The notes: generated by a model not told the origin, from the sequence alone. A DNA stretch of 64,000 nt from Armatimonadota bacterium (GCA_026003175.1 BPGT01000001.1:186001-250000); one strand, 5' to 3'; numbered from the stretch's first letter, positions 6,869-14,379 are shown. Numbers and translations are program-made.

Positions 6869-6930
6869 GATTGCTTCAGCACTTCGTGCTTCGCCGTGAC
6901 ACCAGGCAGCCTCCATCGTGTCACTGCGAG
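6869..6930. repeat. REP-like palindromic intergenic repeat
   Basis: GATTGCTTCAGCACTTCGTG starts here and recurs at 59349, and the partner arm (GTGTCACTGCGAGG) corresponds to TGTCATTGCGAGG at 59386-59398. Both copies lie between genes. The arrangement is that of the widespread GATTGCTTC...TCATTGCGAGG intergenic repeats. Confidence 0.65.
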
Positions 6931-7029
6931 GGGCGTCTGGAACATCGCGTTGAACACACCCTGAGTGGAAGAGTCACTCAATCTATGTTATACTGTAGAG
7001 TGAGTGGCTTAAGTAGTAAGGAGGAGCCT

Positions 7030-7968
7030 ATGGGCTATACCAACTTCGACCAGATTCTCGAAGACGCTGCACGGCTAAAGCGCAATAAGGTGGCTGTAGC
7101 CTGTGCACACGAGCAGTCGGTAATGGAGGCGCTGCGCTTGGCACAAAATGCCAGTCTGGCGCAGCCTCTTTTTATAGGTGACGCCGAACGCATCTATGCT
7201 ATTGCACACGACCTGGAATACGCCATCACCCCCGATATGGTACTGGATGAGCCCGACGACATCGCGGCGGCGCGACGGGCGGTACAGATGGTGCGGGAGG
7301 GCGAGTGCGACGTACTGATGAAAGGACAAATCCACACCGCAGACCTGCTGCGTGCCATCCTGGACCGTGAAGCAGGCTTGCGCACCGGTCGCATCATGAG
7401 CCATGTGTTCATCCTGGAGCTGAAAGACCGCTTGCTGATGGTCACCGACGGCGCGATGAACATCAAGCCCGACCTGATGCAGAAAGCGCAGATTATCTGC
7501 AACGCGGTGTTCGTGGCTCAGGGACTGGGCATTCGCCGACCGAAAGTAGCTGTGCTGGCTGCGGTGGAGACCGTCAATCCCGACGTGCCATCCACCATCG
7601 ACGCTGCCATCCTCTCCAAAATGGCGGAACGCAACCAGATACCGGATTGTATCGTGGATGGGCCCTTCCAGATGGACAACATCCTGTCCGAGGAAGCGGC
7701 GCGGATGAAGAGGCTGAACAGCCCCGTAGCAGGCAACGCGGACATCGTGCTGGTTCCTGATATCGAGGCGGGTAACGCGCTGGTAAAGATGTTCGCGCAT
7801 GCCAGCAGCGGGCGGGTGGCCGGTATTCTGGTAGGGGCATCTGCGCCGGTGGTGTTGACCAGTCGTGCCGACACGGCGGAGTCTAAGATGTTGTCGATTG
7901 CGGTTGCCGCTATTCTGGCGAACCCGCCGCGCCGAGCGCGAATTAGATTGGGTACGGTGTCGGTGTAA
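7030..7968 (+). CDS. ptb: Phosphate butyryltransferase / phosphate acyltransferase (PTA_PTB family)
   Basis: The 312-residue protein aligns in order with phosphotransbutyrylases: VAVACAHEQSVMEAL (about 20-34), GECDVLMKGQIHTADLLRAIL (about 95-115), LLMVTDGAMNIKPDL (about 140-154), VDGPFQMDNILSEEAA (about 213-228) and VLVPDIEAGNALVKMF (about 247-262). It interconverts acyl-CoA and acyl-phosphate, usually with a butyrate kinase, which is not in this window. ATG at 7030 follows AAGGAGGAG. A possible -10 TATACT lies at 6989-6994 with a poor -35. Acetyl versus butyryl specificity cannot be decided. Confidence 0.85.
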   Translation: MGYTNFDQILEDAARLKRNKVAVACAHEQSVMEALRLAQNASLAQPLFIGDAERIYAIAHDLEYAITPDMVLDEPDDIAAARRAVQMVREGECDVLMKGQIHTADLLRAILDREAGLRTGRIMSHVFILELKDRLLMVTDGAMNIKPDLMQKAQIICNAVFVAQGLGIRRPKVAVLAAVETVNPDVPSTIDAAILSKMAERNQIPDCIVDGPFQMDNILSEEAARMKRLNSPVAGNADIVLVPDIEAGNALVKMFAHASSGRVAGILVGASAPVVLTSRADTAESKMLSIAVAAILANPPRRARIRLGTVSV

Positions 7969-8104: not shown

Positions 8105-8329
8105 TCACAAGGACACATGGGATACGGAGGAAAAACTTTTTACAAAATTGACAAATGACAGGATACTAGACAGTGGAACGATATTTCGACGTACCAACGA
8201 GATGCCCTGCAAGTACAGCGCACTGGTCGCCCAGCTGCCGTCCTCCAGCGGCTTCTGCTGCTCTACCAACTCGCCCGCTCCGCACGCCACACCACACGGA
8301 TACCGCGTCAGGTCCTTTTCGGACCACTA
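8105..8329 (-). pseudogene. RHS-repeat core relic
   Basis: The minus-strand frame reads LTRYPCGVACGAGELVEQQK, then GSWATSALYLQGISLVRRNI, the usual 'R-Y-L-Y-D-G-x-E-L-V-x-E ... Y-x-x-G-x-x-L-v-R-R' run of an RHS core repeat. It is bounded upstream by an in-frame TAG near 8327 and degenerates after RRNI into unrelated sequence ending at TGA 8105. In an intact Rhs protein the next segment would be HHFDPLGTAG, which is present in the fragment at 9982-10569. It is a decayed piece of the same gene family, at the distal end of the cassette array. Confidence 0.6.
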
Positions 8330-8446
8330 CCCTTTCTCCCTACAGGGTTTACTATCACTCCTGTTGCTTAAGCACTTTTTACGAGGTGGCTTCTGGTAGC
8401 GCAGAAAGGTGAGCAGCACCCGCCTTCCCTCTTCGGGCACGTTTTG

Positions 8447-8971
8447 CTATCCCCTGTATAGCTCGTACAGAGGAATAAAACGAACAAGAGCATGGTAAAC
8501 ACATAATCCGACAATTATCCAGTAGGTCACTGCCGGCAATAACCAGACACGAGTGACGTTAACGTAGCCCATTGGCTCTCCTCGCAAAAGCCGCTGCCTG
8601 GCAAGCTCAGACACGATGAAAAATGTGAGAAAGGACAATAGCCAGTAGCCTTCAATCACTTCAGAAGTCTGCTGGGGGAACTGCACGAGAACGCTGAAAT
8701 TACCCGTTCGGGTGAACATGCAATGCGCAGCACGGGAGAGGATCTCTCCTAGTTTTGCTTGACCCAGCCTCGCAAGCAGGTAACCAGTGACGAACCACGC
8801 GCCCGCGAAAAGATACGAAAGCACTATACCCCGTTGGAAGTAATCCGTCAGTTGATGATTGCCTGCTCCTAACCTCGCCCTTGCCTGCACGTAAGCCAAA
8901 AGGCTGCAATACAGGAAAATGGGCGGAACTATCACTGCAAGTATGAAGATTCCTGTACCCGTCGTTAGCAT
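8447..8971 (-). CDS. Four-helix membrane protein, candidate immunity protein of Rhs tip A
   Basis: The 174-residue protein has four predicted membrane helices (about residues 7-28, 48-70, 108-126 and 142-168), with FPLYELYRG-like polar ends. ATG at 8971 follows GGAGGAGGTAG. It begins 15 nt after the stop of the Cys-rich RHS tip at 8987-9418, the position where immunity genes sit in contact-dependent or Rhs cassettes. No homologous family is recognised. It is similar in size and topology, not obviously in sequence, to the protein at 9419-9928. Immunity is inferred from position alone. Confidence 0.65.
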   Translation of the reverse strand: MLTTGTGIFILAVIVPPIFLYCSLLAYVQARARLGAGNHQLTDYFQRGIVLSYLFAGAWFVTGYLLARLGQAKLGEILSRAAHCMFTRTGNFSVLVQFPQQTSEVIEGYWLLSFLTFFIVSELARQRLLRGEPMGYVNVTRVWLLPAVTYWIIVGLCVYHALVRFIPLYELYRG

Positions 8972-8986
8972 CTACCTCCTCCACAC

Positions 8987-9418
8987 TCACCTGCTATTGC
9001 GAACACATGTGTCAAAACAGCTCATGCACCAGCTTATCGTTCCAGAGTGTCTAGCGTGACAGGAATCATCACGACTGCAAACCGTCCCCACTGTGAAGCA
9101 AAAAAACTTCAGCAGAGGGCCAGGCAGAAACAAACAAATGACACGTACAGAATCGCAGAAAGCCCCTTGTTTACGCCTACACTGCTCAAGTAAACTGTTG
9201 GCGTCTGCGATACAGCCCTTCACAAACTGATCACACATGGAGCGTGGGTAAGGTCCGCCTTGACTAAAAAGACAGTCTTTGCGCAAGTCATAGCTGCTAC
9301 TATATAGCGGGACAACCATCCGCTCCGGCAAGTAGAACTGTCCTTTGGGAGATACTCGCAACCCTTCTTCTCCAGCTTGGATCCAAACCCACCTCCACGG
9401 CGTCTCGGCACTGCCCTG
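8987..9418 (-). pseudogene. Orphan RHS C-terminal tip A, Cys-rich, without its own start
   Basis: The frame opens directly after a TAG with QGSAETPWRWVWIQAGEEGL, the end of the RHS core also present in the two fragments upstream (RYQQGSAETPWRW). A unique tail of about 120 residues follows with 12 Cys (for example KDC, SMC, KGC, EQC, SWCMSCFDTC). No ATG or GTG start with a ribosome binding site exists before the homology; the only candidate is TTG at 9361. It therefore looks like a displaced, silent toxin tip that needs recombination into a full rhs gene. It is followed by the membrane protein gene at 8447-8971. Confidence 0.7.
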
Positions 9419-9928
9419 CTAGCAGCGCTTGCCCCCAGAGCACATTGTAATGGTGGTGCCGCATTTATCTGTGTTTTGCTTAGGTTCTTGTAGCAACACA
9501 TTGAGTACCATCAGAGCCAGCAGTACAGAGAGCGTAACAAGGCCGGCTGAACTTATGTCGCTGAAGGAGCTCATCCAAGCTATAATGAAAAGACCAGATC
9601 CAAAGAAGCCTCTCAGGTGCCTACACCATCGCAAGTCCTCGCTCAGAGAGTCGTACAGGTGCAGCCTGCGAATGAGCCAGAAGGAGCCGTAGGCAACCAA
9701 CGGAATGGCATTACCCACATACACTACTACAGCCATTCCAACCACTAAGGCTGTAAGTGCCCGCCAGCGCGAGGATGCATTATATCGTACAAGTAAGGCA
9801 TAAACCGATATCAGGGTAAGAGCCGGAAGCCATACCCATGCGCTTACCGTGGTGCGTATGAGCAACAGGAGCAAGACAAACGTCTCCGCTGCGGTTAAAC
9901 CCCATTCATGCACTAAGTCGCGCTGCAT
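9419..9928 (-). CDS. Polytopic membrane protein, candidate immunity protein of Rhs tip B
   Basis: The 169-residue protein has about five membrane helices (LVHEWGLTAAETFVLLLLLI at the start, then helices near 30-50, 62-85, 110-127 and 131-150). A start at ATG 9928 has GGAGG 5 nt upstream and is better than the TTG at 9940. It follows tip B (9982-10569). Its last residues, CSGGKRC, run into a TAG that lies exactly at the junction with the RHS homology of tip A, in the same frame, so its natural C-terminus may have been altered by the recombination. No family recognised. Immunity is inferred from position. Confidence 0.65.
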   Translation of the reverse strand: MQRDLVHEWGLTAAETFVLLLLLIRTTVSAWVWLPALTLISVYALLVRYNASSRWRALTALVVGMAVVVYVGNAIPLVAYGSFWLIRRLHLYDSLSEDLRWCRHLRGFFGSGLFIIAWMSSFSDISSAGLVTLSVLLALMVLNVLLQEPKQNTDKCGTTITMCSGGKRC

Positions 9929-9947
9929 AGTTTCCTCCAATCCATCT

Positions 9948-9974
9948 GCGGTGAGCAGGGTTGCTGCTCACCGC
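9948..9974. other. Perfect intercistronic hairpin
   Basis: GCGGTGAGCAG (9948-9958) pairs completely with CTGCTCACCGC (9964-9974) around a 5-nt loop. It lies between the stop of tip B and the ribosome binding site of the membrane gene. No T-run follows on either strand. It could modulate translation or processing of the candidate immunity mRNA. Confidence 0.55.
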
Positions 9975-9981
9975 GATTTAT

Positions 9982-10569
9982 CTAATACTGCGAGATGTCC
10001 AGCCGCTTGTATCTCGGTATCGGGTAAGGCTTTCTTACGGGTTTCGCCGGCTCCTCTGGCTTGGGCCGCAACCCAAGCCACCCGGCGGCACCACATATAC
10101 TAGCACACCCGTTGAATATCCAGCGGCAAATGGCATCCTTTTCGCACTCCTGCTTGAAGGCATCGACAGCATTTGCCACGCACTCCCTCCACTGCATATT
10201 GAAGGGGTTTGGTACACCGCAATCCGCGATTAACGCCAAGAGCGGTGCTGCAAAGCCTCCGAGGCAGCCTAGGCACACTGGAGTTACAACCGGGCGCAAC
10301 CACCCAGTCCAGTTGGAGAAGAAACCTCTCGTCGTCGCATAGGATACACTAATGCCTCTGTCCACAATCCACAGATAGCTGTTGAACAGCCCTGTGCCTG
10401 GTTCATCACCAACTTGGACAACTACCCATCTCCACGGCGTCTCGGCACTGCCCTGCTGATACCGCAACACCCCGAACAGGTCATATAGGTTGTTGCTGAC
10501 CACCTGCGCGCTCCCGTTCGTGATCACACCCGCCGTGCCTAACGGGTCAAAGTGATGCCACTGGTTCAT
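9982..10569 (-). CDS. Orphan RHS-core fragment with Cys-rich C-terminal tip B
   Basis: The 195-residue frame starts MNQWHHFDPLGTAGVITNGS, then NLYDLFGVLRYQQGSAETPW, the terminal part of an RHS core (compare the usual H-Y-D-x-L-G-S-T-x-x-x-T-D ... Y-D-x-F-G). After GDEPGTGLF the sequence is unique: about 130 residues with 8 Cys (TPVCLGCLGG, WRECVANA, KQECEKDAICRW, NGCASICGAAG) and a Pro/Lys-rich end. In-frame RHS-like codons extend upstream of the ATG for about 7 residues to a TAA, and the GGAGG is about 17 nt away, so translation may be weak. Most likely a displaced Rhs toxin tip. The toxic activity is unknown. Confidence 0.7.
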   Translation of the reverse strand: MNQWHHFDPLGTAGVITNGSAQVVSNNLYDLFGVLRYQQGSAETPWRWVVVQVGDEPGTGLFNSYLWIVDRGISVSYATTRGFFSNWTGWLRPVVTPVCLGCLGGFAAPLLALIADCGVPNPFNMQWRECVANAVDAFKQECEKDAICRWIFNGCASICGAAGWLGLRPKPEEPAKPVRKPYPIPRYKRLDISQY

Positions 10570-10642
10570 GTCGGTTTCGTAGACCTCTCCTCCTTACCCC
10601 TCCACTGGAAAGAGAGACACACCCCTGTTTCATTGCACGGTT

Positions 10643-11137
10643 TCACTGTTCTTGTTCAATTTGCGGCATGTAGATTGAGAACGTGACGAGATGCCCTGCA
10701 CGGTCTTTCACCAGAGCGTCCAGTTGAGCTCGAAGTTCCTCTGCCTGCACTAGGGCGTATATACTTGTCCACCTCCCTTGTCTCCTGCTGGTGTACTTGG
10801 AGGTAGTTTCCCCTCGCACCCCATCCGAGAATAACAGCGTGACAACGCCTTGCTTCGTCTTGCCGCCTGAACGGCTGAAAACCACTGCAACGCTCTTGGT
10901 CTCGCCAGTGCGCGGATGGTACCAACGTACTTTTTCATTGCGGTAGCGCTGCTGATAGAACCTTTCAACATCTTCTCGTCTTGCTGGCACCACCGCAACA
11001 TAGCCTACGTCGTATTCGATTTTCCCTTGATTTTTGTCAGCCAATATTTCTACTCCTATGACCTCCGTCCCTGACGGGAAAAATAAAGGTGGTTCTAACG
11101 CCTTGGTGCCTATCTTTCTTAGTACCATCGTCTTCAT
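10643..11137 (-). CDS. Soluble protein of unknown function, candidate partner of tip C
   Basis: The 164-residue protein has mixed alpha/beta character (EVIGVEILADKNQGK, VGYVAVVPARREDVERFYQQ), is rich in Lys and Arg, and ends FSIYMPQIEQEQ. It has no signal peptide and no membrane helix. ATG at 11137 has AAAGGGG 8 nt upstream. It follows the RHS tip C gene by 64 nt and precedes tip B by 73 nt, so by position it is the immunity candidate of tip C, although unlike the other two partners it is soluble. No family recognised. Confidence 0.6.
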   Translation of the reverse strand: MKTMVLRKIGTKALEPPLFFPSGTEVIGVEILADKNQGKIEYDVGYVAVVPARREDVERFYQQRYRNEKVRWYHPRTGETKSVAVVFSRSGGKTKQGVVTLLFSDGVRGETTSKYTSRRQGRWTSIYALVQAEELRAQLDALVKDRAGHLVTFSIYMPQIEQEQ

Positions 11138-11201
11138 GTCCGTACCCCTTTCTTTTCGGCTTTTTTAGGGGATGTTCAAGGAGGTTGATTGGGTTGCGTG
11201 C

Positions 11202-11726
11202 CTAATTGTTATCCGGCTCCTGAGCGAGAGCGCACCTTCTCCAGCATATGGCTGGGCCCCCGCCTTCGCCCGGGCAAAGCTTTTCACAGCAGTCGCCACA
11301 CCTGCTGCTGGGTAGACTGAGACAAGGTTTGTAGCATCCTCCGAAATAGTCGCGGTTGTTAATATCTGCACAAATTGCCTCACAGCCAAGCTTCAAGACG
11401 TTCTCACACAGCGAGGATCCCTCAGGTAGCGCCTTGCAATAGGCAGCGAAAGATTTGCAAATAGTCAAACAACCTGCGTATGCCGGATCGCTGGGATTCT
11501 TGGGTGGGCACTTCGGGTTCCCACGACATCCCGGACCTACGCACAATCTGCCAGGAAAAATCACCCAGCACCAATTCCTCCACCCCATGCTCACCAGAAG
11601 GCCCTCATCACCTATCCTGTCGGTCTTCCACCTCCACGGCGTCTCGGCGCTGCCCTGTTGATACCGCAACACCCCGAACACATCAACCAGGTTGTTGCTG
11701 ATTACCGATGCCGACATGTTTCTCAT
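11202..11726 (-). CDS. Orphan RHS-core fragment with very Cys-rich C-terminal tip C
   Basis: The frame from about 11747 reads GIAEVMRNMSASVISNNLVD, then VFGVLRYQQGSAETPWRWK, homologous to the tip B fragment. RIGDEGLLVS follows, then a unique tail of about 115 residues with about 18 Cys, many as CxxxC or CxxC (GCLTICKSF, GCEAICAD, GGCYKPC, RCGDCCEKLC). ATG at 11726 is the first methionine inside the homology but lacks a good ribosome binding site. Further upstream the frame enters the inserted repeat at 11745-11880, which has replaced the rest of the RHS core. Likely a displaced toxin tip. The Cys pattern suggests disulfides or metal binding. Confidence 0.65.
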   Translation of the reverse strand: MRNMSASVISNNLVDVFGVLRYQQGSAETPWRWKTDRIGDEGLLVSMGWRNWCWVIFPGRLCVGPGCRGNPKCPPKNPSDPAYAGCLTICKSFAAYCKALPEGSSLCENVLKLGCEAICADINNRDYFGGCYKPCLSLPSSRCGDCCEKLCPGEGGGPAICWRRCALAQEPDNN

Positions 11727-11744
11727 CACTTCCGCGATGCCTGG

Positions 11745-11880
11745 TTGGTCAACCTCTCCCCCATCCCCTCTCCTACGAGGAGAGGGGAGCCGCGCGTCGG
11801 ACGCCCCCTTCCCTTGCAGGGAAGGGGTCAGGGGGTTAGGTTCCAACACCAACGGCTCGGCGGGAGCCTTGCCCTTCACA
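11745..11880. repeat. REPIN-like double hairpin plus GGCTCGGC repeat
   Basis: Two perfect hairpins, CCCCTCTCC-TACGA-GGAGAGGGG (11765-11787) and CCCCTTCCCTTGCAGGGAAG onward (11805-11827), are followed by GGGGGTTAGGTT. All three elements occur in the same order in the two MITE-like elements at 55404-55784. The block ends with GGCTCGGCGGGAGCCTTGCC (11857-11876), a member of a second dispersed family. It interrupts the RHS homology of tip C. Confidence 0.75.
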
Positions 11881-11912: not shown

Positions 11913-14156
11913 CTACACCGCGCGTATCTTGTTAATCTCGCTCTGCAGGGTCACCAGGCGGTGGTACACACCCTCTTTCGCCATCAGCTCGTCGTGTGTG
12001 CCCACCTCCACCATCTGCCCTTGCTCCAGCACCACCAGCCGGTGGGCGTTGCGCAGGGTGGACAGGCGGTGCGCGATGGCGACCGTCGTGCGGTTCTGCA
12101 CCAGTCGGGCGATGGCTTCCTGAATCTGGCGTTCGGTCTCGGTGTCCACCTGCGAGGTGGCTTCGTCCAGGATCAGGATGCGCGGGTCGTGCAGGATGGC
12201 GCGCGCGATGGAGATGCGCTGTCTCTCGCCACCCGATAGTCGCTGTCCGCGCTCGCCTACCTGAGTGTCGTAACCATCTGGAAAGCGCAGGATGAAGTCG
12301 TGTGCGTTGGCTGCTTTCGCAGCGGCGATAATCTCTTCCTGCGTGGCACCGGGCTTGGCGTAAGCGATGTTGTCGCGGATGGTGCCCGGGAACAGGAAGG
12401 GTTCCTGCAGCACCACGCCCACATGCTTGCGCAGGTCTTCCATGCGAATCTTGCGCACATCCACGCCGTCTATCAGAATCTGCCCTTCGTCGGGGTCGTA
12501 GAAGCGCAGTAGCAGGTTGATCAGGGTGGATTTGCCTGCGCCGCTGTGTCCCACGAGCCCTACCATTTCGCCCGCTTCGATCTGGAGGTTAATGTTCTTG
12601 AGCACGGGCTTGTGCTTGTCGTAGCCGAAGGTGACGTTGCGGAACTCCACCTCACCGCGCACCTCGGGCAAGGAGATGGCGTCCTCGGCGTCCTTCACAT
12701 CGGGTTCGGTATCTAAAATCTCGAACACGCGCTCGGCGGCAGTAAAGGTGCGTGTGAGCCACTGGCTGACCCGGGTGAGAATCTGCAAGGGACCGTAGAA
12801 CATGCCCAGATAGCCCAGGAATGCCACCAGCGTGCCCAGTTGTACTTCGCCCTTCACTACGCCATAACCGCCGAACGCCCACACTAGGAAGAAGCCAATA
12901 TTGGTGAGCAGGTTGAGCAAGGGGAAGAAGGTCGCCCACATCATCTCCGCTTGCATCCCCGAGCTCATCAGGTCGCGGTTGCGTCGCTGGAAGCGTTCTA
13001 TCTCGTCGCTCTCTTTGGCGAAGGCTTTCACTACGCGAATGCCCGAGAGTGTGCTGTTCAGCGTGGCGGAGAGACGCGACCACCGGTGCCAGAACTGGTG
13101 GAACACGCGGCGTACTGTCTTCCAGAACCACATCGTCACCAGCACCACGACAGGCGTGGGCAACAAGATGAGCGCAGCGAGCTTCCAGTTCATCCAGAAG
13201 AGCACCGTCGTGATGCCGATCAGCAGCAGCACATTCACGATGAGCGAGCTCACCCCGTCCACCAGAAAATCGTATAGCGCGCCGGTGTCCTGGGTGATGC
13301 GCGACATAATCGCGCCGGTATGACGCTTGTCATAGAAGGAGAGGGAGAGCCATTGCAGGTGCTGGAACAACTTTGCCCGCACCTCGAACACCAGCCGTGC
13401 GCCCAGCCATGCGGATAGCCTTCCGCGCCACACCGATAGCCCCACGCCCGCCAGGCGCGTTACCGCCAGCACGGTTAAAATCACCACCAGCAGGTGCAAG
13501 TTCTGACGTGGCACCAACACCGAGTCCACCAGAATCTTCGTCAGATAGGGCGGAGCAAGCTCCAGTGCGGTGCCAGCCAGCATGAGCAATCCCGATAGCA
13601 CAATTTGCCACTTGTAAGGCTTGGCGAACCCCAGCAGCCGCCAGACTACCCGACCTTTGCGGGAACAGCGTGGGCACACCTGCGTATCCCCGGGCAGACG
13701 GAACCCACAGGCAGGACAGTGCGTGGGCTTTTGCTCCACCGGTTCAGGGGGAGGCTCCTGTTTAGCCACCGCAGCCAAATAGCGAGCAACCTCGGCAAAG
13801 ATACCGGCGCGCGCGTTGGAGTAACGCAACAACTCCAGCGGTTTGCCGTCCCGAATGACCATTAGCGCCCCACAGCCCACCAGGCTTTCGGTGGTGGCGT
13901 CGGAGATGCAGCTCAGGGGCAGGTCGATGTCGCAGTGCACATCGGGCGGTTCGATAGCGGTGTTCAGCCCGTTGCCCAGTACCGGCGGAACCCAGCCGGA
14001 CGGGGGAGAGTAAACCTGTACGCAATCATCCGTGACGATAAGCCAGCGGATACCGAATAACCCATCTGCACCGATGTCTGTATACGCGCTCAGGCGTATC
14101 TGCTCTTCTCCGATTTTCTCTTTCAAAACGCCAGGAACAGGCTCACACAAGGGCAT
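11913..14156 (-). CDS. ABC exporter (fused TMD-NBD) with N-terminal accessory domain and zinc ribbon
   Basis: The protein has 747 residues. Residues 1-130 form a mixed alpha/beta domain of no recognised family (LFGIRWLIVTDDCVQVYSP). A zinc ribbon CPACGFRLPGDTQVCPRCSR (about 151-170) is next. Then comes a six-helix type 1 exporter TMD (about 185-470). The nucleotide-binding domain carries Walker A GHSGAGKST, signature LSGGERQR, Walker B ILILDEATS and the H-loop AIAHRLST. It should work as a homodimer exporting lipid, peptide or drug. The frame is open 42 codons further upstream, but a promoter lies within that stretch, so ATG 14156, with GGAGGAAGG before it, is preferred. Cargo unknown. Confidence 0.9.
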   Translation of the reverse strand: MPLCEPVPGVLKEKIGEEQIRLSAYTDIGADGLFGIRWLIVTDDCVQVYSPPSGWVPPVLGNGLNTAIEPPDVHCDIDLPLSCISDATTESLVGCGALMVIRDGKPLELLRYSNARAGIFAEVARYLAAVAKQEPPPEPVEQKPTHCPACGFRLPGDTQVCPRCSRKGRVVWRLLGFAKPYKWQIVLSGLLMLAGTALELAPPYLTKILVDSVLVPRQNLHLLVVILTVLAVTRLAGVGLSVWRGRLSAWLGARLVFEVRAKLFQHLQWLSLSFYDKRHTGAIMSRITQDTGALYDFLVDGVSSLIVNVLLLIGITTVLFWMNWKLAALILLPTPVVVLVTMWFWKTVRRVFHQFWHRWSRLSATLNSTLSGIRVVKAFAKESDEIERFQRRNRDLMSSGMQAEMMWATFFPLLNLLTNIGFFLVWAFGGYGVVKGEVQLGTLVAFLGYLGMFYGPLQILTRVSQWLTRTFTAAERVFEILDTEPDVKDAEDAISLPEVRGEVEFRNVTFGYDKHKPVLKNINLQIEAGEMVGLVGHSGAGKSTLINLLLRFYDPDEGQILIDGVDVRKIRMEDLRKHVGVVLQEPFLFPGTIRDNIAYAKPGATQEEIIAAAKAANAHDFILRFPDGYDTQVGERGQRLSGGERQRISIARAILHDPRILILDEATSQVDTETERQIQEAIARLVQNRTTVAIAHRLSTLRNAHRLVVLEQGQMVEVGTHDELMAKEGVYHRLVTLQSEINKIRAV

Positions 14157-14184
14157 ACCGCAACACCTTCCTCCTGCAGATACC

Positions 14185-14213
14185 AGTATACCACCCCTCT
14201 CACAGGCTGTCAA
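14185..14213 (-). promoter_or_regulatory. Sigma-70-type promoter of the ABC exporter gene
   Basis: On the minus strand TTGACA (14213-14208), 17 nt, then TATACT (14190-14185). Transcription should begin about 20 nt before the ATG at 14156, which fixes the start codon and excludes the longer open frame. Confidence 0.85.
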
Positions 14214-14379
14214 AATGCGTGGGGATTTTCCCCCGTTTGATGACGCAGGAAAGGCGCAGGCGGTTCGCGAACTGAAAATCAAAGTGCAGGTGCTCCGTTA
14301 GACAGGAGATGATGAGATTCACGCCGAGCGACCAAACACAGCGCCAACCTTGGTAAACTGATAGAGTCTGGAGGTGTTC

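Follow-up and report, generated by a model that had tools for sequence, protein, structure and literature searches.

An array of displaced Rhs C-terminal ends in an Armatimonadota genome: a probable stranded store of cysteine-rich toxin-tip/immunity cassettes

Introduction

Orphan Rhs tips have been studied best in Enterobacteriaceae. What look like such tips are lined up in a 64,000-nucleotide stretch of DNA (hereafter the window) from an Armatimonadota bacterium, an organism of the hot-spring type, and the locus raises the question of what a row of displaced Rhs ends, each with a small gene behind it, represents in this genome. In Salmonella and other Enterobacteriaceae, orphan rhs-CT/rhsI tips are silent and become activated by recombination (PMC3967940), and 26 orphan tips have been described in Ornithobacterium (PMC13183296). 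The initial annotation proposed that the array stores displaced Rhs tips together with the partner genes linked to them. Here we analyse its anatomy, its relatives and the rhs genes to which it could belong, and we weigh this proposal against other readings.

Results

The array fills a 3944-bp gap between two genes that converge on each other, a phosphate butyryltransferase-like gene (ptb; 6871..7968, plus strand), which is also convergent with the array, and an ABC transporter gene (11913..14282, minus strand). Between 8447 and 11879 the minus strand carries three displaced Rhs C-terminal ends (tips C, B and A), each with a small gene after it, and the order in the direction of transcription is tip C, partner C, tip B, partner B, tip A, partner A and a core piece. 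The three core-bearing frames of the initial annotation, each with a downstream gene on the same strand (at 10643, 9419 and 8447), are all present on the minus strand, and the three tips and three partners are open frames of 143–225 codons.

Tip C (11205..11639, minus strand; the frame ends at 11202) combines a degenerate core end with a cysteine-rich tail (18 cysteines in 145 amino acids); the core in this frame reads ...VISNNLVDVFGVLRYQQGSAETPWRW. The core segment of this cassette, SNNLVDVFGVLRYQQGSAETPWRW (11628..11711, minus strand), is mostly 87–95% identical in DNA to the other copies, and the cassette C core also contains a REP-like dispersed repeat of about 95 bp (11749..11846, minus strand). 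Partner C, a putative immunity gene (10643..11137, minus strand), has no transmembrane segment. Tip B (9982..10569, minus strand), in which the core runs from WHHFDPLG to PWRW, is the only cassette of the array with an in-frame ATG just ahead of the core; a purine-rich stretch lies upstream of this ATG. Partner B (9419..9940, minus strand) has about three hydrophobic segments in a hydropathy scan, as has partner A (8447..8971, minus strand). Tip A (8987..9418, minus strand) lies directly after the stop codon of partner B. A full core-end motif had been attributed to all three tips, but tip A retains just the last ten core residues, QGSAETPWRW, and the fact that these residues directly abut the partner B stop indicates that tip A was joined there by recombination or deletion. 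A search of the cassette frames of tips A and C detected no native start codon, and in the window tips A–C carry no export signal. The array ends with a tipless core fragment, LTRYPCGVACGAGELVEQQKPL...LQGISLVRRN (8184..8309, minus strand). The fourth core piece that had been placed at 8105–8329 is therefore real but shorter, as 126 bp match intact cores, with DNA identities that range from 88.9% (with the C6 copy of the same genome) to 92.9% (with the congener G181). This fragment reads TRYPCGVACGAGELVEQQKPLEDGSWATSALYLQGISLVRRN and corresponds to the part of the core just upstream of that retained in the tip cassettes.

The core itself is present in 13 copies in the source genome (E 5e-31 to 3e-4, DNA mostly 87–95% identical), and a 150-residue version of it matches 58 of the 291 genomes of the phylum; in congeners, Rhs frames match at E about 1e-101, which bears out the initial annotation in that the core similarity is not due to chance. 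One shell clade with this core is found in several Armatimonadota families. The longest copy of the query segment in the source genome belongs to a 548-amino-acid frame with RHS repeats (C6:41312-42958), and in G181 a 1096-amino-acid frame encodes a protein with 12 RHS repeats and DUF6531. TIGR03696 does not match the core plus linker, and the DPxGL motif is absent from the core/tip junction. The core end and the first 25 or so tail residues can be aligned with the classical Rhs-associated core found in other Rhs genes of the source genome (hhalign 93%, E 2.8e-7), and from this alignment the EEGL...YLPER linker appears to be a decayed version of the classical ETGLYYLRARYYDP end. The REP-like repeat has 79 matches in the source genome and also lies inside the core of many other orphan cassettes, an observation that suggests that many copies spread or decayed after that insertion.

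The distance between ptb and the ABC transporter gene is only 39–156 bp in G180, G181, G184 and G185. In HRbin16 (G179), the ABC gene and ptb are found at two contig ends. Next to the ABC gene is the N-terminal half of an rhs gene, and next to ptb is a C-terminal rhs half, which has a cysteine-rich tip and a membrane partner; its orientation is that of the window array, and so is its core. The HRbin16 main gene is thus split over two contig ends, and its two halves are presumably continuous. In G187 a core remnant adjoins ptb. From this comparison of the site in the congeners, HRbin16 and G187, we infer that an rhs locus was gained at the ptb/ABC site and that its main gene was later lost in the source genome. 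Indeed, no intact rhs gene with this core was found in the source genome (97% complete, 7 contigs), in which the main genes of the family are internally deleted or truncated frames of 548 and 685 amino acids. A complete rhs gene with the same core, which the initial annotation suggested looking for elsewhere in the genome, was thus not detected there, but intact genes are present in the congeners G180 and G181. Of what would have refuted the initial annotation, the absence of such a gene therefore applies only in part, and a main gene in the same genome is common for orphan modules without being required. As the main genes of this core family are truncated in the source genome, the store in the window appears to be stranded.

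The tips recur together with their partners, tip A in G184, G181, G180 and G179, tip B in G187, where its tail domain is 80% identical and the adjacent partner B homologue 67% identical, and tip C in G187, G184, G181 and G164, the last a genome of another family in which pair C adjoins a different core. Between species, tip and partner are conserved together at 70–84% identity, and tip C has a second copy with its partner in the source genome (G000:C1:57007-57762). When the 40 cassettes with partners are compared pairwise, the partners are similar in 20 of the 33 pairs whose tails are similar and in 0 of the 747 pairs whose tails are dissimilar; these pairs are not independent of one another. 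The anatomy, homology and co-inheritance of the cassettes are established by these comparisons. A simple hydropathy scan detects at least one hydrophobic segment in 35 of the 40 partners; it detects none in partner C, homologues of which in G181 and G164 have an N-terminal hydrophobic segment. Other partners of the family match HEAT, TPR, BamE(-like) or beta-propeller repeats. We infer that the partners are immunity proteins located in or at the membrane.

Tails of at least 90 amino acids (n = 41) contain on average 8.0% cysteine, versus 1.5% in the long frames of the window. The distances between cysteines peak at 4, 7, 11 and 15 (z 5.6, 2.4, 4.1 and 5.3, respectively; 20 family representatives), which is the spacing of one helix face. 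The tails had been described as unrelated, and it is true that not all of them link, but 27 of the 41 join one similarity group, partly through a common stretch of about 30 residues at their start, and the tails share a cysteine frame as well as a degenerate Rhs core end. The other Rhs types of the source genome have tails that are mostly not cysteine-rich, with two exceptions of 13 cysteines each. Intact Rhs proteins of other families with the same core type have 10–14 cysteines at their end and twin-arginine-like or Sec-like signals at their start. A relative of tip B, at 37–39% identity, ends a 640-amino-acid shell frame with RHS repeats in G184; full-length Rhs fusions of tips A or C were not seen among the genomes compared.

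The AlphaFold2 model of tip A, built from three sequences, is all-helical, with a pLDDT of 77–89 for residues 41–130. Foldseek found nothing at E <= 0.001 for this model in the PDB; a likeness to saposin A (E 4.8, every match having E > 2) is not evidence. The model of tip B, from a single sequence, has a pLDDT of 53 and is unusable. Profile searches of tips A–C and their partners against Pfam, NCBIfam, PADLOC and PHROGs gave nothing convincing, in agreement with the earlier failure to recognise a toxin domain in the three tails, and a hit of tip B to aminodeoxychorismate lyase was rejected as a chance match (NCBIfam, 22.5 bits for a cut-off of 253). Neither the tail alignment against PDB sequences nor tip C against a plasmid collection gave a match, and no catalytic residues are recognisable in tips A–C.

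Two sibling tips carried by the same shell (L100 and L110, from G180 and from G050, a genome of another family) have the active-site signature of secreted phospholipase A2 (PLA2), D-x-L-D-x-C-C-x-A-H-D-x-C-Y. Their matches to PF00068 have E values of 0.001 (G050) and 0.09 (G180), both below the curated cut-off, and the G180 tip matches PDB phospholipases with a phmmer E of 0.004. Both are followed by a beta-propeller partner, and these two partners align with each other (E 7e-5). The CCxxHDxCY signature and the PLA2 His-Asp pair are absent from tips A–C; some tip A homologues have H-D before a cysteine, but a PLA2 identity of tip A was rejected because the histidine is not conserved among them. 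The VKOR disulfide-forming family is present in all ten genomes of the genus. Taken together, the cysteine-rich tails, the exported shells, the PLA2-like siblings and the presence of VKOR in the ten genomes make disulfide-bonded toxins that would act outside the cytoplasm the best interpretation of the tips.

At first sight, the shells of the genus have no signal peptide at their N-termini. The DNA directly upstream, however, contains a ribosome-binding site and MLRRFPYLRTLATVCILSLTVQVAAPLFAS, followed by a run of G and then by the shell in another frame; the codon of the junction residue is GTA, which is not a start codon. The sole in-frame copy has 6 G (G181:C18), and its signal frame is open over 531 amino acids. 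The tract is out of frame with 7 G in G181:C38, 8 G in G185:C60 and G180:C18, 10 G in two copies of the source genome (C4 and C6), in G179 and in G180:C38, and 13 G in G184:C2, the relatives being draft genomes, mostly metagenome bins, in which homopolymer lengths can be wrong. In a 401-kb sample of source-genome sequence, which is biased towards rhs loci, 7 of the 9 poly-G/C tracts of at least 8 lie at rhs 5' ends; the 64-kb window contains no tract of that length. These lengths are those expected from slipped-strand phase variation, and imply that the tract may vary in this way; programmed slippage and assembly error are the alternative origins.

Discussion

In this work we found that the array very probably stores orphan Rhs toxin-tip/immunity cassettes, of a disulfide-rich family with putative toxicity, and that this store is stranded. 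The recurrence of the pairs in congeners, the association of similar tails with similar partners (20/33 versus 0/747) and the existence of intact Rhs genes in the genus all uphold the original proposal of a store of displaced tips with linked partners. The tips would be disulfide-rich, mainly helical domains of exported Rhs shells, and we think it rather likely that their site of action is the cell envelope, outside the cytoplasm, with membranes as the most probable target; the partners would neutralise them in or at the membrane. The window tips lack an export signal, and A and C also lack their own start codon, which suggests that they would remain silent until a tip is fused to a main shell gene by homologous recombination in about 30–140 bp of common core. 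At most, the stranded store itself probably provides immunity genes or DNA for recombination. The poly-G tract between signal peptide and shell would be a further control of the main gene in congeners, and it is likely, judging from the reading frames, that the protein is exported only by cells in which the tract length is a multiple of three. The broadest reading, to which we give an even chance, is that of a phase-variable, Sec-exported Rhs weapon of the genus, with a poly-G switch at the signal-peptide junction. It would draw on a library, spread over the whole genome, of dozens of disulfide-rich tips that attack the envelope and are paired with immunity proteins in the membrane; the window array would be one drawer of this library.

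It is possible, and in our opinion rather doubtful, that the array is a dead remnant, a decaying relic of a deleted rhs locus that acts neither as a store nor as a source of immunity. The lack of an intact main gene of the family in the source genome would be explained in this way, as would the reduction of the tip A core to 10 residues fused to the partner B stop, the tipless core fragment and the repeat inserted in the cassette C core. Such decay is less easy to reconcile with six tip and partner frames still open over 143–225 codons, with pairs conserved together at 70–84% identity between species, and with the retention of tip C and its partner in two copies in the source genome. A mere likeness by chance, or a repetitive element mistaken for an Rhs core, can practically be dismissed: the REP-like repeat is indeed present in several core copies, but this reading is refuted by the 150-residue protein matches in congeners (E about 1e-101) and by the in-frame fusion of the core to RHS repeats and DUF6531 in intact proteins.

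Adhesins commonly have cysteine-rich exported domains, and this, with the lack of a catalytic motif in tips A–C, would also fit tips that are variable surface-recognition or attachment domains, involved in kin recognition or matrix binding, with partners that are dedicated membrane anchors, as the membrane partners could be, or folding helpers. We consider this unlikely, given the PLA2 signature in two sibling tips of the same shell and given that HEAT, TPR, BamE-like and beta-propeller partners form a variety typical of immunity proteins rather than one anchor; in addition, the displaced-tip arrangement is that known for Rhs toxins (PMC3967940). A store of toxin tips with their immunity partners remains our preferred reading.

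Such a store is already known in kind. The orphan rhs-CT/rhsI modules of Enterobacteriaceae (PMC3967940) are likewise displaced ends with a stretch of core and a small downstream gene, are silent and are expected to recombine, but their core homology is 522 bp compared with about 30–140 bp here. In addition, the Armatimonadota array differs from these modules by the absence of a main gene in the genome and of a DPxGL junction, by its cysteine-rich tips, by the Sec-type signal of the main genes and by the lack of a detectable type VI secretion system (T6SS) in the genus. The gene for the T6SS sheath protein VipA/TssB was found in none of the 10 genomes of the genus, and delivery by T6SS as a PAAR-Rhs effector was rejected on that ground. 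In bacterial teneurin-like proteins, one hydrophobic tip of a YD/RHS shell permeabilises membranes and inhibits only when exported (PMC13018210). These proteins resemble the present family in having YD/RHS shells with signal peptides, in the small size and variability of their C-terminal toxins and in the immunity gene that lies downstream; in contrast, the shell studied here scores only 21 bits for a Teneurin YD-shell cut-off of 50, and its cysteine-rich tips occur in arrays. Lipids are also attacked by the tips of polymorphic toxins of the Tox-PLA2 or Lipocone kind (PMC3482391, PMC12419801). Lipocone tips do so outside the cytoplasm, and their immunity proteins are membrane proteins or lipoproteins. 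Tips A–C differ in that they do not match PLA2 models, and the portions of these descriptions that we compared present no cysteine-rich repertoire linked to one shell.

What looks new is the cysteine-rich repertoire tied to one shell clade, together with the poly-G control. One Armatimonadota shell clade is associated with a large uncharacterised repertoire of cysteine-rich tips, whose co-inherited partners are mostly membrane proteins; this repertoire is a source of candidates for toxins that act on the envelope and for their immunity proteins. As for the control, homopolymer tracts are the basis of phase variation in the contingency loci of Neisseria and Campylobacter. The rhs main genes are similar to these loci in having an early poly-G/C tract whose length differs between copies, most of which are out of frame, and differ from them in that the genes under the tract's putative control are Rhs genes; the literature searched, which leaves out most subscription journals, contained no report of phase variation in such genes. 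If the tracts do switch expression, Rhs competition would gain a stochastic on/off control, and it could be tested why a costly toxin stays off in most cells. Out-of-frame tracts are also present in the signal peptides of other rhs genes of the source genome (G9 in L053; C8, C9 and C8 in L082–L084).

The main rhs genes of the window-type family, all of which lie outside the window, carry a poly-G tract where a Sec-type signal peptide meets the Rhs shell (L044, position 12991; L050, position 8564; L126, L127, L130, L132, L135, L139, L176 and L192). Among these genes the tract is in frame (6 G) only on contig C18 of the congener G181. The differing length of the tracts suggests, at the level of sequence, that the main rhs genes are phase-variable. 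Four other long rhs genes of the own genome have an out-of-frame poly-C or poly-G tract inside the signal peptide (L082:2930, L083:2107, L084:2631 and L053:2627); dockerin-like repeats follow the signal in three of them.

Two tips on window-type shells bear a secreted phospholipase A2 signature, each followed by a beta-propeller partner: L100 (G180:C22, a congener), whose tip is also the one in L148 (3-983), and L110 (minus strand), in a genome of another taxonomic family (G050).

The own genome also has, at 36 places, a second Rhs family of the classical type, with the TIGR03696 core and orphan arrays of its own (for example C2:637415-646238, C2:1117187-1126582 and C5:65635-72649). Several Rhs cores are interrupted by a palindromic-looking dispersed repeat of ~95 bp (window 11749-11846; 79 matches in the own genome), which also forms tandem arrays with a period of about 100 bp (C4:8826-9327, C6:43251-43735 and C1:552628-553124).
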